Below are positions 8,505 to 24,358 of a stretch of DNA of 64,000 bases, piece after piece. The number at the start of each line of letters is the position of its first letter. Positions within the stretch are counted from its first letter, which is position 1. The notes beneath the pieces were generated by a model. The model did not search any database. It was given only the letters and a program-made list of their open reading frames with translations, and had not been told where the DNA came from. The stretch spans positions 1 through 64,000 of the forward strand of contig JAUIHW010000017.1 of NCBI GenBank assembly GCA_030431775.1, in the 5' to 3' direction. This DNA is from Gammaproteobacteria bacterium. GTDB lineage: Bacteria; Pseudomonadota; Gammaproteobacteria; Pseudomonadales; JAUIET01. The translations under genes were made by a program, and so were the position numbers.

Positions 8505-10683
8505 TGGCAAGCCTTTCTATGCGAACCGGAATATTGCTCATGCGAGGCATCCCGGTGTATTTTTCATAATCATTTTCCACCGAGCTCAGTCGGCCGGTAT
8601 TCGAACCGAGCTCAGCGCAGCGTTCGTCCAGTTCCGGCACATTGCCCCAGCAATGGGTCATGGATACCGTGCCTGGGCGCAGATTGTAATCGATGTCAAC
8701 GATTGCTGGTATGCTGGCGTGCTCGCCGACCAGCTGAATTCGATCACCGGTGGATACTGCAAGCTTCTGGGCATCGTCTGGGTTCAGGTAGGCGGGGTTA
8801 TAGGGCTTACCGCGCAGCTGGCCTTCTATGTTGATGCCGGTGGAATTCAGCACGTTCATTTGTCGGCGACACAGCAGTTTCAAGGGGTATTGTTCATTGC
8901 TATCAGCGTCTGCCTCCCAATCGGCAAGATCGGCCATCATCTGGGTATTGCCAACGTCCAAACGGCCGGTCCATTGTGGGTCTTTATCAGCCACGAATAC
9001 GGTCGGGTCGGGGTAGGTGGCGCCACCCTTGTGCTTGCGCACTTCGCTGAGCGCAATGCGGCTGCCGTGCGTCAGGAGGTCCAGCAAGTGCTCGGAATCC
9101 GGTTTGTTCTGCATGTCGAGCTGATGGCCGGGTACCCGCACTACACCGCTGAAAGAGATTGGTTTCATGGTGAGTTGCAAGCCCATGCGTTGGGCCAGCC
9201 CGTAAAAGAATTCCCAGTCCTCGATTAGCTCAGAGCCCGGTGGGGCCTCGACAATTGCCGGCGTGTACTGCGCGTAGGCTTCGGTGGTGCCGAAACCGAC
9301 GGCATACTCGCTGAGATACTCCTGAGCGAGGGTGGTGCCCGGACATTCCAGGGGGTGCTTGACAGCAATCACATAGTCAGCACGTTGCGCGGTGGCTGAT
9401 TTAGCCACATCGATTTGCACGGATAGTTCCAGAGTATCAAAGGCTTGCTGGGTTTTCAGCTGGTCTGGCCAGGCCGAAAGGGGATTGCCGCCGTGACTTA
9501 TCAGAGCACGAACCTGGCCCTCTCCGGGGGTAATAATTTCATCGGCCAGCGCGGCAGTGGGCATCCCGGCGGCCGTATTGCTCAAGCCGCGCACCCGAAT
9601 GTTTTCTCCGAAGCCGTAGGCAAACTCCGGGTATGGCGGCAGTGCTTGCGCTTTGGCCAGCGTGGGCTGGCCCAATGATGCTGGTTCAAAGACCTTCTCG
9701 CCGGCGCGTTGCCAACGCCCACATAATGTGTTCATGCACAACACCAGGTACTCGAGCAGGGTCGTGTTGCCGGCCATATTCGGCCCGGTACCGGCCGTCA
9801 CAACGCCTTTGCTTGCAGTTGCAAATGTTCGTGCAGCGCCAATCAAATCGTCTGCTGCTACACCTGCTTGCTGTGCGACATCAGCGGGTGCGAAGCCTGT
9901 CACGGCCGCGCGCAAGGCGTCCAAGCCGTCAACATTCGCAGCGACAAAGCCCTGGTCGTACAGCTCCTCAGTAATGATAATATTCAGCATAGCGGCCAGC
10001 AGTGCTACATCATGGCCTGGCTTCACTTGCAAAAACAGTTTGGCGCGACGCGCTGTTTCTGACCGTCGTGGATCGATAACAATCAGCTTAAGGCCGCGCG
10101 TCAGCGCATCTGTCAGGTGGCGGCCAGGATTGGTATGCGGTACGCCACCAGACATTGCGATCAATGGATTGACACCAATCAGCAAAAGTACCTGTGCCTC
10201 GGAAAAATTGTTCGCAGGTGCCATCCATTTGCCATGGAATGCCTGCGCCACCATTTTTCCGGGTTGGTCTATCGTGTTTGAATTAAAGCCCATTCGTGAG
10301 CCAATGGCTTTCAACCAAGATGACAGCAGCGCTGAGTTGATTGCACTGGAGTTCGCGGCCATCGTTCCTGAATAGCTTGCCACACTGCGTGGCCCGTGTT
10401 CCGCAATCAGTGCCTGCAGCTTTGCTGCGATTTCATCCATGGCCTGCGCTACCGGAATATCCTGGTAGCTGCCGTCAGACCGACGTTTTTGCGAACACAA
10501 AAGGCGCTCAGGGCTGTTTCGCGTGGCGTGGAAGTTCTGCCCTTTTATGCAACAGAAGCCTTTGTACAGGGGATTGTCGGGGTCGCCCGACACCGTAACC
10601 GGTTTGCCATTGTCAACATCAACGATAACACCGCAGCCGGCATGACAGGCGCGACAAATTGTGTGGTGGCGAGTGATGCTCAT
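8497..10683 (-). CDS. Molybdopterin oxidoreductase (copy 1)
   Basis: This 728-residue protein of the DMSO reductase superfamily has an N-terminal [4Fe-4S] site Cys10-x2-Cys13-x3-Cys17 plus Cys45 in CIKG. Bis-MGD binding signatures follow (GVNPLIAMSGG, IDPRRSETA, GGNPLSAW) and a C-terminal beta-barrel domain with MTHCWGN. No Tat signal is present, so it should be cytoplasmic. The stretch aligned with the usual Mo-ligand Cys or Sec reads SNTIDQPGK, with neither residue. It overlaps the TonB receptor start and is divergent from an aldehyde dehydrogenase. A close paralogue is at 51417. It is probably a formate- or aldehyde-type redox enzyme, but the substrate is unknown. Confidence 0.85.
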   Translation of the reverse strand: MSITRHHTICRACHAGCGVIVDVDNGKPVTVSGDPDNPLYKGFCCIKGQNFHATRNSPERLLCSQKRRSDGSYQDIPVAQAMDEIAAKLQALIAEHGPRSVASYSGTMAANSSAINSALLSSWLKAIGSRMGFNSNTIDQPGKMVAQAFHGKWMAPANNFSEAQVLLLIGVNPLIAMSGGVPHTNPGRHLTDALTRGLKLIVIDPRRSETARRAKLFLQVKPGHDVALLAAMLNIIITEELYDQGFVAANVDGLDALRAAVTGFAPADVAQQAGVAADDLIGAARTFATASKGVVTAGTGPNMAGNTTLLEYLVLCMNTLCGRWQRAGEKVFEPASLGQPTLAKAQALPPYPEFAYGFGENIRVRGLSNTAAGMPTAALADEIITPGEGQVRALISHGGNPLSAWPDQLKTQQAFDTLELSVQIDVAKSATAQRADYVIAVKHPLECPGTTLAQEYLSEYAVGFGTTEAYAQYTPAIVEAPPGSELIEDWEFFYGLAQRMGLQLTMKPISFSGVVRVPGHQLDMQNKPDSEHLLDLLTHGSRIALSEVRKHKGGATYPDPTVFVADKDPQWTGRLDVGNTQMMADLADWEADADSNEQYPLKLLCRRQMNVLNSTGINIEGQLRGKPYNPAYLNPDDAQKLAVSTGDRIQLVGEHASIPAIVDIDYNLRPGTVSMTHCWGNVPELDERCAELGSNTGRLSSVENDYEKYTGMPRMSNIPVRIERLANE

Positions 10684-10817
10684 AATATGCTTTTGGGCGC
10701 GTGTCTTCGAATAGTAGCTGCTTGGTCGTCGCGAGGGGCTTACTTTTTAGTATGGTTGTGCATCGCGGCCGTTGACCTTCCGCTACAATACGCGCCTGAG
10801 CGGTGGTGGAAATTGAC

Positions 10818-12218
10818 ATGTCTGATTCGAGAGAACTGGTAAGAAACCTGGTGGCACGGGCGCGTAGCGCGCAAGAATGCGTCAGCCAGTATTCGCAGCA
10901 GCAAATTGACGAGGTGGTGACAGCTTCCGCGTGGGCGCTTATGAACCCGGTCAATAATGAACGCCTGGCGCGCCTGGCAGTAGAGGAGACCGGGCTTGGC
11001 AATGTTGACGACAAAATCATCAAGAATCACAGAAAGACTCTGGGCTTGTTGCGAGATTTGCGTGACGCAAAAACCGTTGGCGTGATTCGCGAGTTGGAAG
11101 ATTTGGGCATTACCGAGATTGCCCGCCCGGTGGGTGTAGTAGGCGTCATCGTGCCCTCCACTAATCCGATAGCCACTCCGATGAATAATATTCTGAATGC
11201 GCTTAAATGCCGCAATGCGATAATTCTCTCGCCGTCGCCCAAAGGTCAGCCGAGTTGTGCCCGTTTGCTTGAGCTGGTGCATGCTGAGCTGACCCGGGTT
11301 GGTGCGCCGGTGGACCTGGTACAACAGCTGCCGGCACCGGTGAACAAAGAGCTGAGCCAGGAGATGTTGCGCCAGGTCGATCTGGTGGTGGCGACCGGTT
11401 CGCAGAATAATGTCCGCTCGGCCTATACCAGCGGCACGCCAGCGTATGGCGTAGGGGCCGGTAATGTCACCGTAATTGTGGATGAGACCGCATCCGTAGG
11501 TGACGCTGCACAAAAGATTGCCGCTTCCAAAACGTTCGATAATGCAACCAGCTGCTCGTCAGAAAACAGTTTGGTAGTGGTGGATAGTGTGTACGATGCC
11601 ATGTTGTCTGCGCTCGAAGAGCAGGGTGGTGATCTGCTGATGTCATCTGAGAAAGCGTCTTTGCAGGCGGCGATGTGGCAGGAAAATCGCTTGAACCTGC
11701 AGCTGATTGCCAAGCCCTGTCGGAGGATTGCGGAACTGGCCGATCTACCACGCCCGGAAAGCCGCCAGGCTGCGTTTCTGATGGTCGAGGAAACGGAGGC
11801 CGGCCCGCAGGCGCCATTTTCCGGTGAGAAAATGGCTCTGGTGCTGAGCGTTTACCGGGCACGTGATTTCCAACACGCCAAACAGATTAGTCGGGAGATT
11901 CTAAACTTCCAGGGTGCCGGTCATTCCCTGGGCCTGCACAGTCGGCTTGATCAACGGGCGGTGGAGCTTGGCCATGAGCTTCCGGTGAGCCGGGTGATTG
12001 TCAATCAGGCGCATTGTTTTGCCACAGGTGGCAGTTTCGACAATGGCTTGCCGTTTTCCTTATCGATGGGCTGTGGTACCTGGGGTGGCAATGTGACTGA
12101 CGAAAACGTCCACTATAAACACTTCATGAATATCACCCGCGTGGCACGCACTATTACGCCACGCGAGCTGGATGCAGAGGCGTATTTTCTGGAGTATCGC
12201 CAGAAGTTCGGGCTTTAG
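10818..12218 (+). CDS. CoA-acylating aldehyde dehydrogenase (paralogue A)
   Basis: This 466-residue member of the PduP/EutE/SauS branch of the aldehyde dehydrogenase superfamily oxidises an aldehyde to an acyl-CoA with NAD(P). The cofactor-binding block VGVVGVIVPSTNP lies around 105-117, TSGTPAYGVGAGN about 204-216, and the catalytic cysteine is Cys246 in ATSCSSEN. The absence of a conserved general-base glutamate after NAD binding fits acylating enzymes. ATG 10818 is chosen over the upstream GTG 10803 because it matches the length of its paralogue. It is convergent with that paralogue (12-base gap) and divergent from the molybdopterin oxidoreductase. Sulfoacetaldehyde, succinate semialdehyde or acetaldehyde are possible substrates. 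Confidence 0.85.
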   Translation: MSDSRELVRNLVARARSAQECVSQYSQQQIDEVVTASAWALMNPVNNERLARLAVEETGLGNVDDKIIKNHRKTLGLLRDLRDAKTVGVIRELEDLGITEIARPVGVVGVIVPSTNPIATPMNNILNALKCRNAIILSPSPKGQPSCARLLELVHAELTRVGAPVDLVQQLPAPVNKELSQEMLRQVDLVVATGSQNNVRSAYTSGTPAYGVGAGNVTVIVDETASVGDAAQKIAASKTFDNATSCSSENSLVVVDSVYDAMLSALEEQGGDLLMSSEKASLQAAMWQENRLNLQLIAKPCRRIAELADLPRPESRQAAFLMVEETEAGPQAPFSGEKMALVLSVYRARDFQHAKQISREILNFQGAGHSLGLHSRLDQRAVELGHELPVSRVIVNQAHCFATGGSFDNGLPFSLSMGCGTWGGNVTDENVHYKHFMNITRVARTITPRELDAEAYFLEYRQKFGL

Positions 12219-12230
12219 TTGCCCTGGTTT

Positions 12231-13631
12231 CTAGAACTTATTCATTACGCCGGAAAACAGTTCTTCATCCGGCGGAAGTACTTTTGGCTCCGCCAGTGGT
12301 CTGGAAACCCAGGTTTCATTAATCAGGTCGCGCCAGGTAATATTATTGTTCGTTGCGTTTCCGCCCCACGAACCACAGCCCAATGAGAAAGTCTGACGCA
12401 GCCCATTCCACAGGTTGCCACTGTTGGATGGCGCTTGCGGCTGGTTAACCAGCACGCGGGACGTTTTTGTTTGCTCAGCAAAGCTCATGATATTGGCATC
12501 GTTGTTTGAGTAGATGCCGCAGGAATGCCCTTGTCCCTGATAGGCCTGAATTCGATTGGTGGTGTCGATGGCGTCCTGAATATCCTTAACTTTGTACAAG
12601 GCCATAATGGAAGACAGCTTCTCACCTGAAAACGGGTGATCGGGGCCTGCCCCGGTTTCCGGGACCATGATGAACTTTGCATCGGCAGGCAATTCGACGC
12701 CCGCCATACCGGCAATTTTGGCGATCGGCTGCGCGACAATCGCCGTGTTCAGCCGCCCGTCTTCCCACATGGTGGCCTGTAGTTTGGCTTTCTCATCGCT
12801 ATTAACCAGGTAACCACCTTCCGCTTGCAGTCGCTTGATAAACTCGTCATAGATAGACTCAAACACCAATACTGAATTGTCCGCTGAGCAGGAGGCGGCG
12901 AGGTCCAGGGTCTTGGAGAAGCGGATCTTTTCCGCGGCATCATCCAGGTCAGCGCTGTCGTCCACCGTTATGCAGGCATTGCCGACACCGACGCCCAATG
13001 CTGGTGTGCCGCTTGAGTAGGCGGCCGTTACCATGGCGCCTCCGCCAGTTGCCAAAATGCGGTCACACTGACGCATCAACTCATTGGTGGTCTCCAGAGA
13101 AGGTGTTTCAATGTACTGCACCAGATCGGCGGGCGCACCGCACAACTCGATGGCTTCACGCATATAGTCGCAAATGCGCTTGTTCGTCAGTTTGCCGCGT
13201 GGGTGCGGAGCAATAATGATGGCGTTTCGGCCCTTTACAGCGGAGATCGCTTTAATGACTGGTGTGGCTTCCGGGTTCGTCGAAGGTACAAGTGCGCCGA
13301 TAACACCCACCGGCTTCGCAATCTTCACAATATTGCGTTCAGGCAGCTCCTCGATAACACCAACGGATTTGTCGTCGATGATGTCAAACAGGGTGGCTCG
13401 TGTTTTCACGTGAATTTTCGCAAATTTGCCGTCGTAATTGCCCAGTTGAGTCTCGTCCACCGCCAACTGCGCAATCTCTTCAGAGCGGTCCTGCCGGGCG
13501 ATAGAATAGACCATGGCCTTAATGAGCTCGTTGACCTGATCCTGGCTGTAATTATTGATCTGAGCCTGTGCTGCTCGTGCTCGAGCCATTTTCTCGGCAA
13601 TAAAATCCTGGTCGTTTTTGTCCGCTGACAT
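12231..13631 (-). CDS. CoA-acylating aldehyde dehydrogenase (paralogue B)
   Basis: This protein is also 466 residues long, and its order of motifs matches paralogue A: VGVIGALVPSTNP, SSGTPALGVGVGN and catalytic Cys248 in AASCSADN. Sequence divergence is clear across the length, so this is an old duplication. It is closer to SauS-type sulfoacetaldehyde dehydrogenases by general impression, which remains to be tested by phylogeny. ATG 13631 has GGAG upstream at a normal distance, so the GTG at 13646 is rejected. It is divergent from an AraC regulator that may control it. No bacterial microcompartment shell genes are seen. Confidence 0.85.
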   Translation of the reverse strand: MSADKNDQDFIAEKMARARAAQAQINNYSQDQVNELIKAMVYSIARQDRSEEIAQLAVDETQLGNYDGKFAKIHVKTRATLFDIIDDKSVGVIEELPERNIVKIAKPVGVIGALVPSTNPEATPVIKAISAVKGRNAIIIAPHPRGKLTNKRICDYMREAIELCGAPADLVQYIETPSLETTNELMRQCDRILATGGGAMVTAAYSSGTPALGVGVGNACITVDDSADLDDAAEKIRFSKTLDLAASCSADNSVLVFESIYDEFIKRLQAEGGYLVNSDEKAKLQATMWEDGRLNTAIVAQPIAKIAGMAGVELPADAKFIMVPETGAGPDHPFSGEKLSSIMALYKVKDIQDAIDTTNRIQAYQGQGHSCGIYSNNDANIMSFAEQTKTSRVLVNQPQAPSNSGNLWNGLRQTFSLGCGSWGGNATNNNITWRDLINETWVSRPLAEPKVLPPDEELFSGVMNKF

Positions 13632-13736
13632 GATGTTGAGCTCCACGCAGTTTGCTGTTTATAACCGCGTATCGTAGCAGTCAGTCAGGGCGGCCCATAT
13701 TGACAAAGTTGTGAATATTATGGACTATCTTGCGGT

Positions 13737-14618
13737 ATGAGTACTCCTTCCAAATGGCCGCTCCCTGCTGCGGGAGAGCGCTTTCTTACACCGGCATTTA
13801 TGCGCAGCCAGCTGGCCGAACACCCTTTGACAAGGGAGTGTTATCCCACTGCCATGGGGTATTACCCAGTGGCCGCAGGGCACAAAATGCAGCGCAGCAC
13901 CCATGATGACAACCTGTTGCTGTATTGTGCCGTGGGGCAAGGCTATTTGGACACTCCAGGCTGGCGTGGCGCGGTCATGCCTGGGCAGCTAATCCTGTTG
14001 CCTAAGGGCTTGCGCCATGCCTACCAGGCGGATGAAGGCACCCCGTGGACACTTTACTGGGTGCATTTTCTGGGAGATCGAGCGGAACTGTTTCTCGAGC
14101 ACATCGGTTACGATGCCGGCAAGCCCATTGTTGAACTTGGTTTGTCGCCGGCTTTGATACGGGCGTTTAATAGTCTTATGGATGTGCGACGCACGGGCTA
14201 TTCTTCCCATGCATTCATTAATGGCGCCAATCAGTTGCGACATTTGTTGACGGAGATTGCGTTACAGCTGAATGCGCAGCGAGCGCTGCAACACAACGGC
14301 TTTGAGCTGGGGCGGGTACAGAAGCTGATGCAGGAGAGTCTCTACGGTAGCCTGAGTCTTGACGCATTGGCGCAATGCGCCAGCATGTCCAAGTATCATT
14401 TTTCGAAACGTTATAAAGAACTGACGGGATACTCGCCGATCCGGCATTTTCTAAATATGAAAATGGAACACGCCTGTTTATTACTGGACACCACGGACCT
14501 TGGAGTAGGCCGAATTGCGTTGCAGCTTGGCTATGATGACGCTTTGTATTTTTCGCGCTTGTTTCGCCGAACCATTGGTTTATCGCCCAGGGCGTATCGT
14601 GCCTCCATCAGGCGGTAG
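13737..14618 (+). CDS. AraC-family regulator with cupin sensor
   Basis: The N-terminal cupin-like domain of this 293-residue regulator (residues about 40-120, GYYPVAAGHKMQR, QLILLPKGLRHAY) probably binds a small ligand. Two helix-turn-helix motifs occupy about 195-290 (LSLDALAQCASMSKYHFSKRYKE and the second motif IALQLGYDDALYFSRLFRR, which ends with GLSPRAYR). It is divergent from paralogue B with a 105-base gap, so it likely controls that gene. No clear Shine-Dalgarno precedes the ATG. A TTGACA lies at 13700, but the matching -10 is poor, and translation may start close to the transcript start. Confidence 0.85.
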   Translation: MSTPSKWPLPAAGERFLTPAFMRSQLAEHPLTRECYPTAMGYYPVAAGHKMQRSTHDDNLLLYCAVGQGYLDTPGWRGAVMPGQLILLPKGLRHAYQADEGTPWTLYWVHFLGDRAELFLEHIGYDAGKPIVELGLSPALIRAFNSLMDVRRTGYSSHAFINGANQLRHLLTEIALQLNAQRALQHNGFELGRVQKLMQESLYGSLSLDALAQCASMSKYHFSKRYKELTGYSPIRHFLNMKMEHACLLLDTTDLGVGRIALQLGYDDALYFSRLFRRTIGLSPRAYRASIRR

Positions 14619-14649: not shown

Positions 14650-14655
14650 TATAAT
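14650..14655 (+). promoter_or_regulatory. -10 element upstream of the HDAC-like gene
   Basis: A consensus TATAAT lies at 14650-14655, with no recognisable -35 at 17 bases. It would start transcription near 14662, which excludes the ATG inside it (14654) as a usable start and supports the TTG start at 14693. Confidence 0.45.
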
Positions 14656-14692
14656 GGCGGCCTCGTTTAAGCTGATACAGGAGCTTTATCCC

Positions 14693-15613
14693 TTGACCAC
14701 GCTCTATTTGACCCATTCCGATTGTGGACGCCACATGATGAGTGCTTCGCATCCAGAATCCCCCCAGCGGCTGGCGGCTATCAATGCTGCTGTGAAAAAA
14801 GCGCCTTGGAGCGAAGGTGTTTGTTTTGAAGAAGCACCACTGCTTTCCCTTGCTGGCCTGGCCACAGCACACCCGCAGCATTACGTTGATTCGATTGTAG
14901 AGAAATCACCCGCCGAAGGTGTGGTGGCTTTAGACGGCGATACGCTGATGAACCCGCACAGTCTGACCGCGGCATGCAGGGCTGCGGGTGCGGCAATACA
15001 CGCAACGGACGAGATTTTGGCTGGAACGGTGAGCAATGCGTTCTGCGCGGTTCGCCCGCCAGGGCATCATGCCGAGTCGACCATTGCCATGGGTTTTTGT
15101 TTTTTCAACTCGATCGCACTCGCGGTGGAACGAGCATTGGCCGCTGGCCTTGAGCGGGTGGCCGTTCTGGATTTTGATGTGCACCACGGCAATGGCACAG
15201 TTGAGATTTTTCAGGACCGGCCCGAGGTACTGGTGTGTTCGAGTTTTCAGTATCCGTTTTATCCAGGTCGCTTTGATAAGGTAAATAAAGAGAATATTTG
15301 TCTTACGCCGCTGCCGGCCGGGACCGGCTCGGGCCAGTTTCGCCAGGCAATTGAGCGTGATTGGCAAGAGGCGCTGGGCCAACATCGACCGGATATGATC
15401 CTGGTTTCCGCGGGCTTTGACGCGCATCGCGATGATCCATTGGCGCAATTACAGCTCGACGACCTTGACTACCGCTGGTTGGGAGAGCAGTGCGCAAGCT
15501 GGGCACAGCGGTGGAGCGATGGCAGACTGATGGCCATATTGGAAGGCGGGTACAATCTTCCTGCGCTGGCTCGCTCCAGCGTACAGTTCATTTCTGCACT
15601 TGTTGAAGAGTAA
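14693..15613 (+). CDS. Histone deacetylase-family (acetylpolyamine/acuC-like) hydrolase
   Basis: A zinc deacetylase of 306 residues, it carries the family signatures RPPGHHAE, FDVHHGNGT and SAGFDAHRDDPLA, which give the catalytic histidines and metal ligands. Bacterial members remove acetyl groups from polyamines, acetoin-pathway proteins or other amides. TTG 14693 is chosen because AGGAG lies at 14679-14683, nine bases upstream, and because the ATG at 14654 sits in a -10 element. It is convergent (10-base gap) with an aminotransferase. A role in amide or polyamine catabolism is possible but unproven. Confidence 0.85.
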   Translation: MTTLYLTHSDCGRHMMSASHPESPQRLAAINAAVKKAPWSEGVCFEEAPLLSLAGLATAHPQHYVDSIVEKSPAEGVVALDGDTLMNPHSLTAACRAAGAAIHATDEILAGTVSNAFCAVRPPGHHAESTIAMGFCFFNSIALAVERALAAGLERVAVLDFDVHHGNGTVEIFQDRPEVLVCSSFQYPFYPGRFDKVNKENICLTPLPAGTGSGQFRQAIERDWQEALGQHRPDMILVSAGFDAHRDDPLAQLQLDDLDYRWLGEQCASWAQRWSDGRLMAILEGGYNLPALARSSVQFISALVEE

Positions 15614-15623
15614 TGGCAGGCTG

Positions 15624-16898
15624 CTAGATTTCTTCGACTGCAGTAGCAGCCTGTGCGAACGCATTAAACAGTTGTTGCATATCGGCTTCTGTCAGTGCCA
15701 GGCTTGGGTAAATCTTCCCTGGGGATTTAAACACACCCTGTTGACGCAATACGGCGTTGTAGTGTGCGGCTTTATGGCTGTCGGCATTCAGCACATCACG
15801 ATAGTTTTGCACGTCGGACTGGGTGAACACTACTTCAAACAAGGTTGGGTGCCCAACAATTTGGTGAGCAATACCCGACTGGTTGAGGTTTTTGCTGATG
15901 CTGCTCATCAAACGCTCGCCTAAGCTAAACAAGCGTGCGTACTCTCCGGGGCGGCGCAGAATCTCAAGAGTTTTTAGCCCCGCGGCGGCCGCCAGCGGAT
16001 TGCCGCTGAGTGTGCCGATCTGCATTAACCAGGCTTCGCTATCGACCTGCTTTTTGTCGAAATGACGCAGGATGTCCTCGCGACCTGCAATGGCTGCCAG
16101 CGGCAAGCCACCTCCAATGACTTTTCCCAATGTGCACAGGTCCGGTGTTACGCCGTAGAACGTCTGAGCTCCGCCATAGTCAAAGCGGTAGCCAGTGACT
16201 ACCTCGTCGAACACCAGCACACTGCCGTGTGTGCTGCACAATTCACGCAGACATTTCAAGAAACCGGATTGCGGAGGCACTATACGTTGTAAGGGTTCAA
16301 CGATTACCGCAGCGATTTCTGAGCCGAACTGATCGAACAGGCTTCGAGTATAGTCCGCGTCATTGAACGGAGCGATCAGCATATGATCGCGAACCGACGC
16401 GGGAATGCCGGCAGAATCCGGAATAGGCTGCGGAAAGTTCGCCTCAGTTGTCGGCATCAGACTCATCTGCGCCTCGGCCGACATGCCGTGGTAACCGCCC
16501 TCATATTTGAGTATTTTGTCACGCCCGGTTGCTGCACGTGCCAGGCGTATGGCGTACATGTCAGCCTCGCCACCGGTGGAAACGTAGCGCAGCTGCTCGG
16601 CGCACGGTACCGAGAGGCAGATCTCTTCGGCCAGTTCGATTGCACGCGCGTTATTGGCAAAAAAAGTCATGCCAAGCGCAAGTTGCTCCTGCACCGCTTC
16701 AAGCACTTCCGGGTGGCCATGCCCCAATAGCATGGGGCCGGAGCCGATCAGTAAATCGATGTATTCGCGACCGTCTTCGTCCCAGACGTGGGCACCGTCG
16801 CCGCGCTGAATGATTACCCCAGGGTCGAAGTTACCGAACCCTCCGGCCGGCAATACCTGGTGGGCGCGATGTATCCAATGCTGCTGGCTGAGTGCCAT
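15624..16898 (-). CDS. Class III aminotransferase (HemL-like fold)
   Basis: A 424-residue PLP enzyme of fold type I, it has the PLP lysine Lys259 in TLGKVIGGGLPL and the pyridine-N aspartate at FDEVVTGYR (Asp231). It resembles glutamate-1-semialdehyde aminomutase but sits in a catabolic operon, so it more likely transaminates an amino acid or amine. Its ATG shares one base with the stop of the Rieske oxygenase (TGATG), giving a tight operon rpiR-Rieske-aminotransferase. A housekeeping hemL role is not supported by context. Confidence 0.87.
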   Translation of the reverse strand: MALSQQHWIHRAHQVLPAGGFGNFDPGVIIQRGDGAHVWDEDGREYIDLLIGSGPMLLGHGHPEVLEAVQEQLALGMTFFANNARAIELAEEICLSVPCAEQLRYVSTGGEADMYAIRLARAATGRDKILKYEGGYHGMSAEAQMSLMPTTEANFPQPIPDSAGIPASVRDHMLIAPFNDADYTRSLFDQFGSEIAAVIVEPLQRIVPPQSGFLKCLRELCSTHGSVLVFDEVVTGYRFDYGGAQTFYGVTPDLCTLGKVIGGGLPLAAIAGREDILRHFDKKQVDSEAWLMQIGTLSGNPLAAAAGLKTLEILRRPGEYARLFSLGERLMSSISKNLNQSGIAHQIVGHPTLFEVVFTQSDVQNYRDVLNADSHKAAHYNAVLRQQGVFKSPGKIYPSLALTEADMQQLFNAFAQAATAVEEI

Positions 16899-18013
16899 CA
16901 GCTGAATTCACCCAGATCGGCGCGAACCCAATTGTGCAGGGCCGCAATAGAATGCTCAGACTCTATGCCCTGCTCCGGGTTGAGAACCAGAGGGCCGGGC
17001 CGGTAGCCGCGCGAGTTTAGCCCACGCTGCACGTTTTTTACCAGCTCGGCGTCTTCGGCAACCGTTGTTTGGCGGTCAAGAGTGATCACCCGGTTGATCA
17101 CTTCGTCTATCTGGCCGCTGTTGGAGTACCAGCCGCGATGTACTTCAGTGCGGTCAACAGCGAGCGGGCGCCAATGATAGGAATTTACTACGCCAGATGG
17201 GTATATCTGCAAGCTGAACGCCGGCCATAGGTAGAATGAACCATAGTCCGAACCTGAGGTGTCGTACCAGGCTTCCTGACTGGTTTGGGCTTTGGCAGCA
17301 TGGCGCAGGCAACGAACGGCTGTGCCATCAGATTGCACAAAAGGGTAAATGTTATAGCTGCCCGGGTCGATCACACCGGATGCAAATGTTGGGTGTACGT
17401 GCTTGCAGTGATAACACTCATTATAGTTTTCGACAGCCACCAGCCAATTGGCCTGCTTTTCAATGGCTACGGAATTAGCATGCTTGCGCTCAGCGATGTC
17501 CGGGCACAAAGCTAGAATATCTTCGGCAACGCCGGGGAAGGTGGTGGCAAGCGAGGCAGGCGCAGGGTTCATATTAATAAAAACGAAGCCGAACAGTGTG
17601 TCCAGCGCGACCTCAGTGAGGCAGATTCCACTGAGGTCCAGCCCCGCAAGTCCCTTGGTTCCGGGTGCGCCGCGCAGCTCCCCGGACAACTCGTATGTCC
17701 AGGCGTGGTAAGGGCAGACCACAACGCGCTTGTTTCCGCTGCCTTCCACCAGGGTGTGACCACGATGCTTGCAGACATTGTAAAAACAGCGCAGTTGGTT
17801 GTCTTTACCGCGAGCAATGAACAGGTCCTGGTCGAACAAGCTGAAAGCCCAGTAATCCCCTACCGCGGCGACCTGACTTTCGTGGCAAACGAATTGCCAG
17901 CTATTGAAGAAAACTTTCTCGCGCGCGGCCGCGAATATCTCAGTGCTTGTGTAGTAGCGCGCATCTAGTGTTGTCAGACCTGTGGGAAACTGGCCCTCTG
18001 TTGCTTGCTTCAT
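16898..18013 (-). CDS. Rieske non-heme iron oxygenase, quaternary-amine type
   Basis: This oxygenase is 371 residues long. The Rieske cluster is bound by Cys81-x-His83 and Cys100-x2-His103, and the mononuclear iron site includes His202 and His207 in ECYHCKHVHP. The style NxxECYHC matches Rieske oxygenases that demethylate quaternary amines (glycine betaine, stachydrine or carnitine). ATG 18013 overlaps the rpiR stop by four bases (ATGA); a longer upstream reading is rejected. No ferredoxin reductase gene is adjacent. Placed opposite a DAO-GcvT demethylase, it probably removes the first methyl group of an N-methylated compound, which is an inference. Confidence 0.85.
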   Translation of the reverse strand: MKQATEGQFPTGLTTLDARYYTSTEIFAAAREKVFFNSWQFVCHESQVAAVGDYWAFSLFDQDLFIARGKDNQLRCFYNVCKHRGHTLVEGSGNKRVVVCPYHAWTYELSGELRGAPGTKGLAGLDLSGICLTEVALDTLFGFVFINMNPAPASLATTFPGVAEDILALCPDIAERKHANSVAIEKQANWLVAVENYNECYHCKHVHPTFASGVIDPGSYNIYPFVQSDGTAVRCLRHAAKAQTSQEAWYDTSGSDYGSFYLWPAFSLQIYPSGVVNSYHWRPLAVDRTEVHRGWYSNSGQIDEVINRVITLDRQTTVAEDAELVKNVQRGLNSRGYRPGPLVLNPEQGIESEHSIAALHNWVRADLGEFS

Positions 18014-18921
18014 GCCGTTGCTCCGGCTAATAGTTGTTCTTCTTCGTACAAACCAATGTCCATCCGCCGTTGGTGGAATTCGTCGATTCTGTCCCGCACA
18101 GCGCTGGGTGCCTGGGCGACCAGAATCGCGATCAGACACTCCAGTAGCGCGGTTACCGCAGCGTTCGACGAAAAGAAGTGCGGCGTGTGGGTGGGGCAGA
18201 CCAGTGGAATGTCTGCTTCACGAGCCAGAGGCGAGGAGGCGCTGTCAGTAACGCCCACGATGGATACGCCCCGTTCGCGTGCAAAGCGCACAGCGGCCAT
18301 GGTATCGCTGCGGTAAGGCTGAAAGGTTAACGCCAGCAGCATGTCTGCCTCGTCAATGGCGTGCAGATCATCCAGGGGGTGTGAGGCCGGACCGGGAAGC
18401 AATTTAATGTGATCGAAGGCCATACGTGCTACATACCAGAATTGCTGCGCCAGACAATGTGCTGCGCCGGTGCCAAGAACATAAACCGAGTTGGAATTCT
18501 GGACCCATTCACACACCATGCTGAGCTGGTTGATGTCTTGTTTAGCCAGACCGCGCTGCAGGTTGTCGCTGGTCGCTTCAAACAGTTGGGCAACCAGAGT
18601 GGCAGCACCGCCTTCCGCCTGCAGATCATGCAACCAGTCACTGCGGGCCCCAAAGCTGGCGAACTCGTCACCCACGCGAAAATCGCGAAACCGTTCGCGC
18701 AATTCTTCGTAACCGCTGAACCCCAGCTCGCGCGCAAGGCGCACAAAAGCATTTGGGTGCACGTTGGCCCGAGCAGCCAGTTTGCGCATGGAGTAAAGGC
18801 TGACATCACGCGGGTGATCGACCAACAGGCGCGCCGCCACCTGCAGGGCCGGTGGAAACTGGTCGAAGTGCTCAGCCAGTGCGGTAAGAACCTCTGCTGC
18901 AGACTGCGGCGTGTTCGGCAT
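18010..18921 (-). CDS. RpiR-family transcriptional regulator
   Basis: A 303-residue regulator: the N-terminal helix-turn-helix domain covers about residues 1-80 (SMRKLAARANVHPNAFVRLAR) and a SIS sugar/phospho-sugar binding domain about 125-270 (VYVLGTGAAHCLAQQFW). The SIS domain likely senses a metabolite. It is first in the operon with the Rieske oxygenase and aminotransferase. It faces the DAO-GcvT gene across a 140-base region holding two matching palindromes, which are its likely operators. Confidence 0.88.
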   Translation of the reverse strand: MPNTPQSAAEVLTALAEHFDQFPPALQVAARLLVDHPRDVSLYSMRKLAARANVHPNAFVRLARELGFSGYEELRERFRDFRVGDEFASFGARSDWLHDLQAEGGAATLVAQLFEATSDNLQRGLAKQDINQLSMVCEWVQNSNSVYVLGTGAAHCLAQQFWYVARMAFDHIKLLPGPASHPLDDLHAIDEADMLLALTFQPYRSDTMAAVRFARERGVSIVGVTDSASSPLAREADIPLVCPTHTPHFFSSNAAVTALLECLIAILVAQAPSAVRDRIDEFHQRRMDIGLYEEEQLLAGATA

Positions 18922-18964
18922 GGATTGCCCTCGGCAGGAAGATCTGCCAGTGTGACTTGAATAT

Positions 18965-19006
18965 ATACAAATGTATCAAAATAACTATAGTTGATACGAA
19001 TGTATC
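18965..19006. promoter_or_regulatory. Paired inverted-repeat operators for the RpiR regulator
   Basis: Two copies of one palindrome lie in the divergent promoter region: ATAC-aaat-GTAT at 18965-18976 and GATAC-gaat-GTATC at 18993-19006. Both share the extended core ATAC[A/G]AATGTATC. Their centres are 29 bases apart, close to three helical turns, which fits cooperative binding of a regulator on one DNA face. Confidence 0.6.
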
Positions 19007-19019
19007 CATAGTGTAATCT
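18991..19019 (+). promoter_or_regulatory. Promoter of the DAO-GcvT gene
   Basis: TTGATA at 18991-18996 (5 of 6 to consensus), a 17-base spacer and TAATCT at 19014-19019 form a plausible sigma-70 promoter. The second palindrome lies across the -35 and spacer, so a bound RpiR protein would block polymerase. Confidence 0.45.
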
Positions 19020-19061
19020 TAGCTCTTGCGAGATGCAATACATTTTGTGCTGAGAAATAAC

Positions 19062-21485
19062 ATGCAAAGTACTGCGAGTGTGGTGATTATCGGTGGTGGG
19101 GTCATGGGGTGTTCCCTGGCTTACCACTTGTGCAAAGAGGGCTGGACGGATGTATTGCTGCTGGAAAAAGCGGAACTGACCTCTGGTTCCACATGGCACG
19201 CTGCAGGGCAGATCACCCATTCGGTATCGCATTATGGTCTGGCTAAGATGGCGGCTTATGGCACGGAGCTTTATCCGGCCCTGGAAGTGGAGACCGGACA
19301 GTCCACCAGCTGGCACGGCTGTGGCAGTTTGCGGGTCGCCTACGACGATGCCGAAGTGGACTGGCTGCACTACACTCTTTCGGTTGGCCTGGGCCTGGGG
19401 CATGAGATGGAGATAGTTGGTCCGGATCGTATTCGCGAGCTGCACCCTTACTATAATCTCGAAGGCATCAAGGCGGCTCTGCACACACCACATGATGGTC
19501 ACGTGGACCCGGCCGGAGTCAGCTTCGCGATGGCAGCTGGCGCGAAAAAGATGGGTGCCAAGATAATCCGCCGCAACCGAGTAACCGGTCTTACCCGGCA
19601 AAGAGACGACAGCTGGCTGGTGCATACCGAGCAGGGTGATTTTCATGCCGGCATAGTGGTCAACGCCGGCGGTACATATGCACGCCAGATCGGACTCTGG
19701 GCCGGGGTTGACCTGCCGATTGCCAACTTATTGCATCATTACCTCATTACCGACACCGTTCCGGAGTTTCAGCGGATTGATATCGAGTTACCGGTGATTC
19801 GCGATGACAAGCTCGTATCCGGCTACATTCGCATGGAGCAGAGGAGCGGCTTGATTGGTATCTATGAAAAGGCCAATGCCGCGACGGTTTGGGACGATGA
19901 GACCCCTTGGGAAGAAGAGAACACCTTGTTCAGCCCGGACTATGACCGCATCATGCCCTGGCTGGAAAATGCCATGGGCCGTATGCCTATATTCGCTGAA
20001 TTAGGTATCAAGCAGGTGATTCATGGCGCAATTACTCATCCTCCCGACGGCAATATGTTGCTGGGCCCAAGCGGGGTGCGCAATTTCTGGTGTTGTTGCG
20101 GCTCCCAGGTGGGGATTGCCTGGGGCCCGGGTGCCGGCAAGTACCTGGCTCAGTGGATGGTGCATGGTGCAGCCGACATTTCCATGGCGAGCTTCGACCC
20201 TCGTCGCTTCGGTGCCAATATAGACCGTGAGTACCGCCTTGAAAAAGCCAAGGAAGATTACCTGCTGCGTCACGAAATCCCGTTTCCAGCCCTTGACAGG
20301 CCCGCCTGCCGGCCGGGGCATTCCAAGCGTTCGCCCCTTTACCAGCTGTTGTTGAGTAAAGGGGCGGTCTACCAGGATGTGTATGGCTGGGAGCGGCCAT
20401 TCTGGTATGCACGTGGTGGCATTGAGCAGGCACATATACACAGCTTCCGTCGCTCGGCTCTGCATGCAGTGGTGAGGCATGAAGTGAACAGCCTGCGCGC
20501 TGCTGCGGGTATTGCTGATTTGACTGCCTTTGCCAAAGTCGATATCTGCGGCCCGGATGCAGAGCAATTCCTGGCTCGAGTGTGCTCCAACAGAGTTCCA
20601 CAGCATGTCGGTTCGACCGTGCTCAGTTATCTGGTAAACCCTAACGGTCGGCTGGAAGGGGAAATTACTCTACTGAAGCTGAATGAGCACCATTATTACG
20701 CCGTGTACGCTGCAGCAAAAGAGGCGGCTTTGCTGAACTGGCTGCACGAGCAACAGCAAGGGGAGCAGCTGGTCTTCAACAATCTGTCGGAAGACTACGG
20801 CGTGATCGCGATTGCAGGGCCAAAGTCGCGGGATATTTTGAGCCTATGCACCAATGCTGATTTGGACAACGCTAGCTTTCGCTGGTTGGCCGGGCGCATC
20901 ATACAGGTTGCCGGGGTCGAGGGCGTCCGAGCAATCCGCGTATCGTACACCGGGGAGCTGGGATGGGAATTGCACGTGCCCATGAGCGGCATGCTGCCCG
21001 TTTACCAGGCGGTGTGGGCAGCCGGTGAGCCTTTGGGCCTGGTGCCTGTAGGCTCAGCTGCACTGAATGCCACACGCATGGAAAAGGCTTATCTGTCGGG
21101 CCATGAAATCACTAACGAAGTTACCCTTGCGGAAGCCGGGTTGGAACGATTCTCACGCGGTGAGTCGTTCCAGGGCCGCAAGTACAGCCTGACACCGGCG
21201 CACCGCTGGAAACTCGGATTGCTGCAACTTGATGAGGGTGATGATAATGCCGATCCGTTGGGCTCGGAATCAGTCTGGCTGGGGAATACCTGTGTAGGCG
21301 CGATCACTTCAGGCGCGTTTGGTGTCGCGGTAAATGCATACTTGGCCTGGGCCTATTTGCGACCGGCGCTGGTGTCCGCCGGCCAGGAACTGGACGTAAT
21401 GGTTCTGGGTAATCGGCGGCGCGCCGTAGTGCTGGATCAGCCGCCCTGGGACCCGGATAATAGACGTCCACGGGCAGATGCCTGA
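19062..21485 (+). CDS. DAO-GcvT fusion flavoprotein (dimethylglycine/sarcosine dehydrogenase-like)
   Basis: A fusion of two domains in 807 residues: an N-terminal FAD domain (GGGVMG near 10-15, then LEKAELTSGSTWHAAGQI with the flavin-attachment-type histidine region) and a C-terminal GcvT aminomethyltransferase domain (about 430-800) that passes the methyl unit to tetrahydrofolate. The layout matches dimethylglycine and sarcosine dehydrogenases, which strip N-methyl groups. ATG 19062 is chosen; the upstream TTG 19026 would precede it by 12 codons and has no support. It is divergent from rpiR-Rieske-aminotransferase and followed by a CMD protein, completing a likely N-methyl amine pathway. It could also act on another secondary or tertiary amine. 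Confidence 0.87.
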   Translation: MQSTASVVIIGGGVMGCSLAYHLCKEGWTDVLLLEKAELTSGSTWHAAGQITHSVSHYGLAKMAAYGTELYPALEVETGQSTSWHGCGSLRVAYDDAEVDWLHYTLSVGLGLGHEMEIVGPDRIRELHPYYNLEGIKAALHTPHDGHVDPAGVSFAMAAGAKKMGAKIIRRNRVTGLTRQRDDSWLVHTEQGDFHAGIVVNAGGTYARQIGLWAGVDLPIANLLHHYLITDTVPEFQRIDIELPVIRDDKLVSGYIRMEQRSGLIGIYEKANAATVWDDETPWEEENTLFSPDYDRIMPWLENAMGRMPIFAELGIKQVIHGAITHPPDGNMLLGPSGVRNFWCCCGSQVGIAWGPGAGKYLAQWMVHGAADISMASFDPRRFGANIDREYRLEKAKEDYLLRHEIPFPALDRPACRPGHSKRSPLYQLLLSKGAVYQDVYGWERPFWYARGGIEQAHIHSFRRSALHAVVRHEVNSLRAAAGIADLTAFAKVDICGPDAEQFLARVCSNRVPQHVGSTVLSYLVNPNGRLEGEITLLKLNEHHYYAVYAAAKEAALLNWLHEQQQGEQLVFNNLSEDYGVIAIAGPKSRDILSLCTNADLDNASFRWLAGRIIQVAGVEGVRAIRVSYTGELGWELHVPMSGMLPVYQAVWAAGEPLGLVPVGSAALNATRMEKAYLSGHEITNEVTLAEAGLERFSRGESFQGRKYSLTPAHRWKLGLLQLDEGDDNADPLGSESVWLGNTCVGAITSGAFGVAVNAYLAWAYLRPALVSAGQELDVMVLGNRRRAVVLDQPPWDPDNRRPRADA

Positions 21486-21505
21486 TTACTGACTGGAGAT
21501 GCATC

Positions 21506-21901
21506 ATGGCAAAAGACTACTTCGAAACCGGCCTGGCAAAGCGTAAAGCTACTCTGGGGGCCAGCTATGTAGAGAAAAACTTGGCGGCGGCCGATGCCTT
21601 AACCCGGGAGTTCCAGGAAGCCATGACCGGCTGGTGCTGGGGTTTCGGCTGGGGTGACGAAACGCTCGACCCGAAAACCCGCAGCCTGATGAACCTCTCC
21701 ATGATAGGAGCTTTGGGTAAGATGCACGAGTGGGAGATTCACTGCCGCGGGGCCATCACCAATGGCTGCAGCTTCGAGGAAATCCGCGCCACAGTGCATG
21801 TGATCGGAATATACTGCGGAGTGCCCCAGGCACTGGAGTGCTTTCGAGTGGCCCGTAAAGTACTGCAAGAGCATGATATGATTCCGGCTGATTGCAGGTG
21901 A
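21506..21901 (+). CDS. Carboxymuconolactone decarboxylase-family protein (CMD/AhpD fold)
   Basis: A 131-residue all-helical protein of the CMD family. The conserved block Glu-x-x-x-His-x-x-Gly occurs as EWEIHCRGAITNG (about 77-89), preceding RATVHVIGIYCGVP. Members are decarboxylases of the beta-ketoadipate pathway or peroxidase-like stress proteins, and many in catabolic operons have other roles. It begins 20 bases after the DAO-GcvT stop with GGAGATG ahead of its ATG, so it belongs to the same operon. Confidence 0.85.
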   Translation: MAKDYFETGLAKRKATLGASYVEKNLAAADALTREFQEAMTGWCWGFGWGDETLDPKTRSLMNLSMIGALGKMHEWEIHCRGAITNGCSFEEIRATVHVIGIYCGVPQALECFRVARKVLQEHDMIPADCR

Positions 21902-22167: not shown

Positions 22168-23124
22168 TTACCAGGCAAAAACCTCCCCAACCAATTCCTC
22201 GCTAGCCTGCCACAAGGCATCGGCCTTGTCCGTATCCAGGGCGTAGTCCATATAACCACCCCGTTTGCCCTCGATCGCGGGTTCGCCAATGTGACAATCT
22301 TCCAGGTAAAGGCCACCAAGTCCGTTCAGGCTAGGGCTGGTGGAGGCCCAGACGCTGGTCGCGGCACCCGCTTCCACGGTCTTAAAGCTCATCGGCTCGC
22401 CGCTATTGCGTTCCTGAAGAGTGGCGATGTCGCTGTGGTCCAGGTGGCGGCCGAGTTCGGTCAGGATGGCGCCCGGATGTACGGCGAAGCTGCGCACCCC
22501 GTGGCTTTGCAGGCGTTTGTCCAGACCCACCGTAAACTGCACATTGGCAGTTTTGGCCTGCCCGTAGGCTTCCCACTTATCGTAGGGGCGGTTGAGGTAA
22601 TTCAGGTCATTCAGTATCGGTTGGCCGAATTTGTGGCCTTCGGATGACAGGTTCACTACCCGTGCAGCAGCGGTTTTGATCAGTACCGGCGCTACCCGGT
22701 TAGTGAATAGGAAATGGCCGACGTGGTTGGTGCCAAATTGTAACTCGAAGCCGTCTGTTGTTCGGCTCAGCGGGCAGGCCATTACGCCGGCGTTATTGAT
22801 CAAAATGTCGATGGTTGGGTAGTTGGCAACTATGTTGTCCGCAGCGGCGCGCACGCTGCCAAGATCAGAAAGATCCAGCTGCAGCGGTGCCAGAAACTGT
22901 TCCTCCAGGCCTTCACGGGCCTCGCTGATGGCCGCTTCAAGCTTGTTCAGGTCACGGGCGGCAGGGATTACGGCAGCCCCTGCACTGGCCAGAGCACGGC
23001 AGGTTTCCACACCGAGGCCGGCCGATGCGCCGGTGACAATCGCGGTTTTACCGCTGAGGTTAATGCCCTCTAACACCTCGTTGGTTGTGCTGTTCGCGCC
23101 AAATGCTGTTTGCTTTTCAATCAT
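22168..23124 (-). CDS. Short-chain dehydrogenase/reductase
   Basis: This SDR has 318 residues, with the cofactor motif TGASAGLG at 31-38, NNAG near 92 and a YGQAK active-site motif near 175. The length and the C-terminal region resemble retinol-dehydrogenase or WW-domain-oxidoreductase type proteins. Its start overlaps the stop of the upstream zinc-type reductase by four bases (ATGA). It probably reduces or oxidises a carbonyl on a hydrophobic substrate, but no specific substrate is apparent. Confidence 0.85.
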   Translation of the reverse strand: MIEKQTAFGANSTTNEVLEGINLSGKTAIVTGASAGLGVETCRALASAGAAVIPAARDLNKLEAAISEAREGLEEQFLAPLQLDLSDLGSVRAAADNIVANYPTIDILINNAGVMACPLSRTTDGFELQFGTNHVGHFLFTNRVAPVLIKTAAARVVNLSSEGHKFGQPILNDLNYLNRPYDKWEAYGQAKTANVQFTVGLDKRLQSHGVRSFAVHPGAILTELGRHLDHSDIATLQERNSGEPMSFKTVEAGAATSVWASTSPSLNGLGGLYLEDCHIGEPAIEGKRGGYMDYALDTDKADALWQASEELVGEVFAW

Positions 23125-24209
23125 GGGATCAGTACCAGTTTGCCGGGGTAGATTTTTGCGTTAAAGTCCTGTTGCGCCTGGACGATGTCTGCCAACGGGT
23201 AGGTTTTGGACACTACCGGGCGAATGCTGTTGGTCTCAATCGCGCGTATCACGTTGTCGAACACCGAATCTTCCTGAAATGTGCTCCCTATCAGGCTGAG
23301 GTCTTTGAGGTACAGCGTGCGCAGATCCAGTTCGACGATCGGCCCGGCAATTGCGCCGGATGTGACGTAGCGACCACCGCGTCGTAACACTTGCAGTAGC
23401 TCGACCCAGGCTGGTCCGCCAACGACATCCACCACCACATCCACACTGTCTTCACCCAGTGCTTCTACAATCGAAACGTCGCGTTCCAGGATACGATCCG
23501 CTCCGAGGTCGCGGACGAAACCGGCCTTGCTTGCGGCCGTGACCGCGACAACTTTCGCACCACGGTACTTTGCCAGTTGCACGGCTGCGGAGCCGACGCC
23601 ACCCGATGCGCCGGTTACCAGTACATTTTCAGCAACTACCTGAGCCCGTTGAAGCATGCCTTCCGCAGTTGAGTATGCGCACGGGACTGAAGCCAGTTCT
23701 GCGTCGCTCCAATCGCAGTTAACGTGGAATGCTTCGCTGGCGATGATCTTCGCGTATTGCGCAAAGCCGCCATCAAATTCAGAGCCAAAGGTGGATGTCA
23801 TAAAAGGTTGATAACCATTATAAGCTCGGGACATTGTGCGTACGATTACGCGCTCACCCAGGCGTCGCGGGTCCACCCCAGGGCCGACGTTAACAATGTG
23901 GCCGCAAGCATCCGCTCCCTGAATGCGCGGAAACTGCAATGCGCTGCCGGACCAGGAACCGTCGTCGCCTGCGGCTTGTGCGAAGCCCTCTGCGCCTCCA
24001 CTCGCCGTCCCACTGGTAACCGACTTGGAATACCAGGCAGTGCGGGTATTAATGTCAGTATTATTGACGCCAGCTGCAGCAACTTTGATCAGTACCTCTC
24101 CGTCATCGGGAACGGGTACGGGGACGTCAGTATGAAATTCCAGCTTATCGTAACCACCGTGGCCGGTGAGCAGCACGGCGCTCATGGTTTCAGGTATCGC
24201 TTCTTGCAT
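23121..24209 (-). CDS. Medium-chain (quinone oxidoreductase-like) dehydrogenase
   Basis: This MDR protein runs to 362 residues. The N-terminal GroES-like domain (VLIKVAAAGVNNTDIN) is followed by a Rossmann domain with VTGASGGVGSAAVQLAKYRGAKV split by the motif GASGGVG. Zinc ligands of true alcohol dehydrogenases are not evident, so a quinone or enoyl reductase is likelier. ATG 24209 has GAGG upstream; the longer in-frame reading to 24317 lacks support. It is coupled to the SDR downstream and faces the crotonase gene. Confidence 0.82.
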   Translation of the reverse strand: MQEAIPETMSAVLLTGHGGYDKLEFHTDVPVPVPDDGEVLIKVAAAGVNNTDINTRTAWYSKSVTSGTASGGAEGFAQAAGDDGSWSGSALQFPRIQGADACGHIVNVGPGVDPRRLGERVIVRTMSRAYNGYQPFMTSTFGSEFDGGFAQYAKIIASEAFHVNCDWSDAELASVPCAYSTAEGMLQRAQVVAENVLVTGASGGVGSAAVQLAKYRGAKVVAVTAASKAGFVRDLGADRILERDVSIVEALGEDSVDVVVDVVGGPAWVELLQVLRRGGRYVTSGAIAGPIVELDLRTLYLKDLSLIGSTFQEDSVFDNVIRAIETNSIRPVVSKTYPLADIVQAQQDFNAKIYPGKLVLIP

Positions 24210-24358
24210 GTCGCCCCTCGGTATCGGTTGGCCAGGAATGACGCGCGCTATGGTAAGCTGCTCATCCGACCGGCAGTCTACTTGCGTGTAGATTGCTTGC
24301 GCAACAGCTAGGCACAAAGTAAAACCAAACTGACTGAGTACAAGGATTCAAAACTGTT

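Follow-up and report, generated by a model that had tools for sequence, protein, structure and literature searches.

What does the divergent gene cassette in a 64,000-nucleotide stretch of gammaproteobacterial DNA (GenBank assembly GCA_030431775.1, contig JAUIHW010000017.1, here C57; hereafter the window, part of a 4.67-Mb genome in 121 contigs) degrade? One arm of the cassette encodes a class III aminotransferase, a Rieske oxygenase and an RpiR-family regulator, and the other a DAO-GcvT demethylase and a CMD protein. The initial annotation of this DNA had proposed an RpiR-controlled system for a quaternary or N-methyl amine, perhaps a less studied betaine. The present analysis supports that interpretation overall, and the type of chemistry well: judged by sequence comparison, the genes likely form an RpiR-controlled cassette for the breakdown of a small zwitterion with a quaternary ammonium group, i.e., a betaine, probably other than glycine betaine. 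Quaternary ammonium compounds are a large marine pool of carbon and nitrogen, and few betaine pathways have known genes. The cassette is frequent in roseobacters, where it surrounds dddQ. Once its substrate is identified, about ten gene families conserved together would gain a function, and it could be judged whether DddQ is mainly an enzyme of dimethylsulfoniopropionate (DMSP). Newly described here are the separate clade of the Rieske protein, the linkage statistics, an operator candidate, an additional MDR member and the connection with the dddQ neighborhood.

Gene content of the divergent cassette

All five genes recognized initially are intact open reading frames (ORFs) of the families claimed; the range then given, 16898-21901, was too short, since it omits the aminotransferase gene named in the same description. 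This gene (15624..16898, minus strand; PF00202) encodes a class III enzyme resembling glutamate-1-semialdehyde (GSA) aminomutase, termed AT3a. On the same strand lie the genes for the Rieske oxygenase of the quaternary-amine (QA) demethylase type (16898..18013; PF00355 and PF00848) and for the RpiR-family regulator with its SIS domain (18010..18921; PF01418 and PF01380). The Rieske gene likely starts at the ATG at 18013, which gives a 4-bp overlap with rpiR, and not at the end of the longer mechanical ORF at 18139. Because the three genes abut or overlap, they are probably transcribed as a single unit. The opposite arm comprises the genes for the DAO-GcvT protein similar to dimethylglycine dehydrogenase (DMGDH), of 807 amino acids (19062..21485, plus strand; PF01266, PF16350, PF01571, and PF08669) and for the PcaC-like CMD protein (21506..21901, plus strand; PF02627), and direct reading of the sequence places a divergent promoter region of 140 bp (18922..19061) between rpiR and the DAO-GcvT gene. 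In addition, an MDR reductase of the zinc-dehydrogenase type (23121..24317, minus strand), absent from the initial annotation, is by orthology a further member of the cassette; it is 48-55% identical to the MDR proteins encoded next to DAO-GcvT or Rieske genes in other cassettes. In the window, the CMD gene and an SDR gene lie between the DAO-GcvT and MDR genes. The MDR ORF opens with TTG, and its true start is uncertain. The GC content is flat over the region, and base composition gives no sign of foreign DNA.

The DAO-GcvT protein is full-length and closest to mammalian DMGDH (515 bits, versus 250 for dimethylglycine oxidase). It shares with DMGDH the complete architecture of DAO, central and GCV_T/GCV_T_C domains, as well as the TWHAAG (His-FAD) and SYTGELGWE (folate) motifs; it differs in its bacterial operon context. 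The aminotransferase scores 383 bits against the GSA-aminomutase subfamily, below the cut-off, and falls outside HemL (358 bits, cut-off 527): the HemL segments VNSPVRAFK, with its Arg, and AGSG are missing, and the true hemL gene is located on contig C9. Two aminotransferase subfamilies, one 61-67% identical to the window protein (a form of roseobacter cassettes) and the other about 37-41% identical, substitute for each other between cassettes and have the motif EP(L/V)QR in common. Viral contigs hold only distant matches to this enzyme, and its structure model (pLDDT 65) was not used. The CMD protein is 70-79% identical to its counterparts in other cassettes and lies below the PcaC threshold (TIGR02425, 107.6 versus 155.7 bits).

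Affiliation of the Rieske oxygenase

A profile built from six orthologs of the Rieske protein ranked the carnitine monooxygenase CntA first (267 bits) and Stc2 second (162 bits), whereas aromatic dioxygenases reached at most 123 bits. The same order was obtained with a structure model built from 24 clade members (pLDDT 85.6), which aligned best with CntA (Z 37.7), then with Stc2 (34.0) and with aromatic enzymes at 32.8 or less. None of the residues N196, E199, H202, H207, and D321 varies among the 24 clade relatives, and both CntA and Stc2 align with a Glu at the position of E199. Where aromatic ring-hydroxylating oxygenases have a bridging Asp, the quaternary-amine Rieske class is marked by a Glu; the iron site of the QA-demethylase style read from the window sequence at the outset, i.e., Glu199 with its iron ligands, is thus conserved throughout this group. 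In a tree of 110 proteins, the 58 cassette Rieske proteins group in a single clade (support 94) that excludes CntA, Stc2 and the 13 GbcA proteins, and the window protein belongs to a four-member subclade (support 99). By residue and similarity criteria, the enzyme is assigned to the quaternary-amine demethylases, with N-demethylation as the predicted reaction.

The phylogenetic check proposed initially, namely whether the protein groups with enzymes acting on aromatics, gave a negative answer: profile scores, model alignments and the separate clade agree, and in terms of sequence and model the protein is not an aromatic dioxygenase by any test run. It is thus highly improbable that the cassette degrades an aromatic or pyridinium compound such as homarine, with the Rieske protein as ring hydroxylase and the CMD protein as carboxymuconolactone decarboxylase. 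That reading draws on the public records, which label the Rieske protein an aromatic ring-hydroxylating dioxygenase, on the PcaC-like character of the CMD protein, and on the position of the dddQ cluster of Ruegeria pomeroyi near mgdABCD, reported in homarine catabolism (PMC13390433). Against it speak the QA-type Glu and the kinship with CntA and Stc2, the CMD score below the PcaC cut-off, and the lack of any recurrent ring-cleavage gene or beta subunit in the cassettes.

CntA is the nearest solved structure and shares with the window protein its fold and the quaternary-amine type of iron site; however, the two are only about 32% identical in structural alignment, belong to different clades and have different gene neighbors. 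In the tree, CntA pairs with the protein of locus L119, outside the cassette clade. CntA has been crystallized with carnitine and γ-butyrobetaine, and one could suppose that the cassette converts carnitine, γ-butyrobetaine or a related hydroxylated betaine to 4-amino-3-hydroxybutyrate or γ-aminobutyrate, the amine of which would suit the class III aminotransferase and the BADH-like aldehyde dehydrogenase (ALDH) of related cassettes. This supposition would leave the enolases and the DMSP-lyase-family genes of the relatives unexplained, and given the position of the window protein outside the CntA clade we regard it as unlikely.

GbcA and the window protein belong to the same class of Rieske QA demethylases but to separate clades. 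Although GbcA is the best NCBIfam match, its score is far below the cut-off (NF058607, 146 versus 670 bits), and one genome (G554) encodes a GbcA-like and a cassette Rieske protein together. A variant glycine betaine pathway, in which the Rieske protein would substitute for GbcA, the DAO-GcvT protein would act on dimethylglycine and the aminotransferase would be accessory, agrees with this best match and with the proximity of the DAO-GcvT protein to DMGDH; nevertheless, the separate clade, the coexistence with GbcA and the aminotransferase gene (present at 36 of the 58 loci), for which the demethylation of glycine betaine has no use, make it improbable. Stc2, the stachydrine demethylase, likewise belongs to the Rieske demethylase class but to another clade. 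The genome has 14 matches to the Rieske catalytic domain (13 above the cut-off), four of which lie within about 25 kb on contig C106.

Conserved linkage and the dddQ neighborhood

A genome scan with the Rieske profile yielded 80 named loci, the close ones mostly from Rhodobacterales (Ruegeria, Roseovarius, and Leisingera), with others from Mesorhizobium, Halomonas and many metagenome-assembled genomes. Around the 58 Rieske genes of the clade, RpiR genes occur in 48 cases, as opposed to none of 28 outgroup loci (Fisher p ~1e-14); the corresponding counts are 47 versus 1 for DAO-GcvT, 36 versus 0 for the aminotransferase, 37 versus 0 for CMD, and 31 versus 2 for MDR. All these counts are lower bounds, as contig ends shorten some loci. 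The gene set is therefore kept together in both Alpha- and Gammaproteobacteria, as the initial annotation had required of a real cassette, and the conservation excludes a chance grouping. In roseobacters, the usual order on one strand is aminotransferase, enolases, (DddQ), MDR, and DAO-GcvT, and on the opposite strand RpiR, Rieske, (GFA, c17, sulfotransferase-like), ALDH, and CMD. The enolases are of the HpbD-like subgroup, a feature that these cassettes share with the pathways of Stc2 and of hydroxyproline or proline betaine; unlike those pathways, they include a DAO-GcvT gene and a gene for a class III aminotransferase. The window itself has no enolase. A recurrent gene pair at one cassette locus (L061:12200-13765) and about 16 others encodes an arylmalonate-decarboxylase/Asp-Glu-racemase-like protein followed by a Sulfotransfer_5 protein.

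The cassette occurs in numerous marine bacteria and in some from soil, with a patchy distribution. The Rieske gene was found in 9 of 398 genomes sampled evenly over the phylum and in none of the 75 other genomes of the search among relatives, including one of the same genus, which suggests transfer or loss. Plasmid-borne cassettes occur in Sulfitobacter, Mesorhizobium, Ruegeria, and Roseovarius (L201, L202, L203, and L204), one of these plasmids being typed as conjugative.

DddQ-like cupins are encoded in 12 of the 58 cassette loci, eleven of them alphaproteobacterial and one (L042:8118-8975, genome G295), outside Rhodobacterales, from the same class as the window. DddQ-type DMSP lyases are encoded in the related cassettes at L061:4193-5409, L070:4923-5597, and L081:4926-5564. 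The copy at L081, from R. arenilitoris, has 97% identity with the crystallized DddQ; for the protein of a Ruegeria lacuscaerulensis strain, the match to the crystallized enzyme is 284 bits, and two from Roseovarius albus exceed the Pfam DMSP_lyase cut-off. Plasmids gave no match to DddQ. In another gammaproteobacterial cassette, a DddP-like M24 protein (L099:16079-17311; 261 bits, cut-off 600) is encoded beside the MDR gene.

Among the closest known systems is the dddQ cluster itself (Ruegeria pomeroyi SPO1593-SPO1596 and Roseovarius nubinhibens ISM_14095); the R. pomeroyi locus was inferred from publications and other Ruegeria genomes. In Ruegeria and Roseovarius cassettes, DddQ is encoded beside the same MDR, DAO-GcvT, RpiR, Rieske and aminotransferase genes. 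The window contains the shared core of RpiR, Rieske, DAO-GcvT, aminotransferase, CMD and MDR, but differs in lacking the enolases and the cassette ALDH, and no DddQ-like gene was seen among its ORFs. By gene content, its cassette is a compact version of the roseobacter cassette in which dddQ is embedded. Linkage of an MDR gene to dddQ has been noted before, the R. pomeroyi gene being SPO1593, and the dddQ-linked MDR gene of Roseovarius nubinhibens failed to cure the acrylate sensitivity of an Escherichia coli yhdH mutant (PMC3338564). R. pomeroyi dddQ is SPO1596 (PMC5395565) and the trimethylamine gene island of this species spans SPO1548-1588 (PMC13390433), which puts the dddQ cluster just past the island. 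The affinity of DddQ for DMSP is weak (Km 22 mM), and an R. pomeroyi dddQ mutant releases 97% less dimethyl sulfide (PMC5395565), the latter indicating that DddQ acts on DMSP in vivo. That the cassette is a hitherto undescribed propiobetaine pathway and that DddQ inside it mainly serves this pathway (for β-alanine betaine or a chiral 2-substituted form, e.g., the head group of diacylglyceryl hydroxymethyl-trimethyl-β-alanine, DGTA), with DMSP cleavage as a secondary activity, is a speculative proposal to which we give rather low probability.

Predicted pathway, operator candidates and flanking genes

In the pathway order that we infer, the Rieske oxygenase would remove the first N-methyl group as formaldehyde, and the DMGDH-like DAO-GcvT protein would transfer the remaining methyl group or groups to tetrahydrofolate, passing electrons to electron transfer flavoprotein. 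The GSA-like aminotransferase would then transaminate the freed, fully demethylated amine, and a dehydrogenase would oxidize the aldehyde so produced, with MDR and CMD presumably acting at later steps. A betaine-type substrate, as initially suggested, accords with these enzyme classes and with the company that the cassette keeps elsewhere. For example, a BCCT transporter gene lies between the ALDH and CMD genes in Rhodophyticola; on a Mesorhizobium plasmid, the aminotransferase gene is followed by genes for EtfAB, a ferredoxin-type reductase and a GbdR-like regulator, and on a Roseovarius plasmid by genes for a PotABCD-like ABC transporter. In three loci (L099:6975-8936, L100:6978-8939, and L101:6165-8132), an OYE-type flavoprotein replaces DAO-GcvT and further Rieske genes lie beside it. 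Tertiary-amine demethylases of the OYE class are known, and such a swap would be expected if the step is an amine oxidation or demethylation.

The leading guess for the substrate, a tentative one, is the propiobetaine class, i.e., a compound of the β-alanine betaine type or a 2-substituted analog, the DGTA head group included. It would fit the aminotransferase as well as the presence, in related cassettes, of DMSP-lyase families with two different folds; a chiral propiobetaine would also explain the enolases. Beyond this class and the alternatives discussed in the other paragraphs, the remaining probability lies with other or unknown betaines. Several observations weigh against assigning the cassette to an RpiR-controlled betaine pathway. 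Besides the ALDH, enolases and DddQ of its relatives, the window lacks an obvious dedicated transporter; the enrichment of DddQ relative to the outgroup loci is borderline (p = 0.053) and suggestive only; MDR, CMD and, elsewhere, the enolases fit no assigned step; the identity of the substrate cannot be read from sequence; and the operator match described next, although individually below 0.05 in 19 of 37 other cassettes, is poor in about half of these relatives.

RpiR control of the cassette, assumed initially, gains support from a candidate pair of palindromic operators with a spacing of 29 bp, both inside the gap between rpiR and the DAO-GcvT gene. These are GATACATTTGTATA (18964..18977, minus strand), of a kind that recurs, with looser matches, in relatives, and GATACATTCGTATC (18993..19006, minus strand), the sole perfect copy in the genome. 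RpiR would control both arms through this pair of GATACATTYGTATC-like sites. A third match with one mismatch, on contig C16, falls within a FimV-like coding sequence and was taken as chance. The reversed pattern likewise has three matches in the whole genome, and when the window is shuffled, 7 of 100 trials yield two matches at two or fewer mismatches, so the number of sites alone proves little; what counts is the placement of both in the divergent gap. In the same gap of 37 other cassettes, the mean match is 9.9 of 14 positions, compared with 7.75 for stretches drawn at random from these loci.

On the aminotransferase side of the cassette, the window encodes SauS1 (10803-12218), a SauS equivalog above the curated cut-off (720 versus 600 bits), and SauS2 (12231-13646), a SauS-like acylating aldehyde dehydrogenase paired with a divergent AraC-type regulator (pair at 12231-14618). 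One could therefore imagine taurine betaine or N-methyltaurine as the substrate, with the flanking SauS-like dehydrogenase taking sulfoacetaldehyde, all the more as Xsc and a class III aminotransferase are encoded together elsewhere in the genome. This reading, the least probable of those weighed here, was set aside: SauS1 is far from Xsc, a SauS1-like gene adjoins only one of the 58 cassettes (L082) and SauS2 none, and the SauS2-AraC pair recurs in genome G432 with genes of the valine type (acyl-CoA dehydrogenase, enoyl-CoA hydratase and 3-hydroxyisobutyrate-type genes). The Xsc locus on contig C89 (L141:10991-17737), with a MocR-type regulator and an aminotransferase that is Tpa-like by position, is an ordinary taurine route. 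As the genome has no conventional methylmalonate-semialdehyde dehydrogenase above the cut-off, SauS2 probably fills that role in place of MmsA, although it could also oxidize the aldehyde from the cassette aminotransferase. A SauS1 copy in genome G369 (75% identical) adjoins genes for a D-aminoacylase-like protein and a membrane transporter.

Neither the SDR gene nor the gene for an amidohydrolase of the histone-deacetylase fold (14654-15613; no NCBIfam match) has a conserved link to the cassette in the 58 loci. This histone-deacetylase-like gene and the SauS-like dehydrogenases are thus probably outside the cassette. The window also encodes two related molybdopterin oxidoreductases, at 8497-10683 (typed by HMM) and 51417-53636 (judged by eye).

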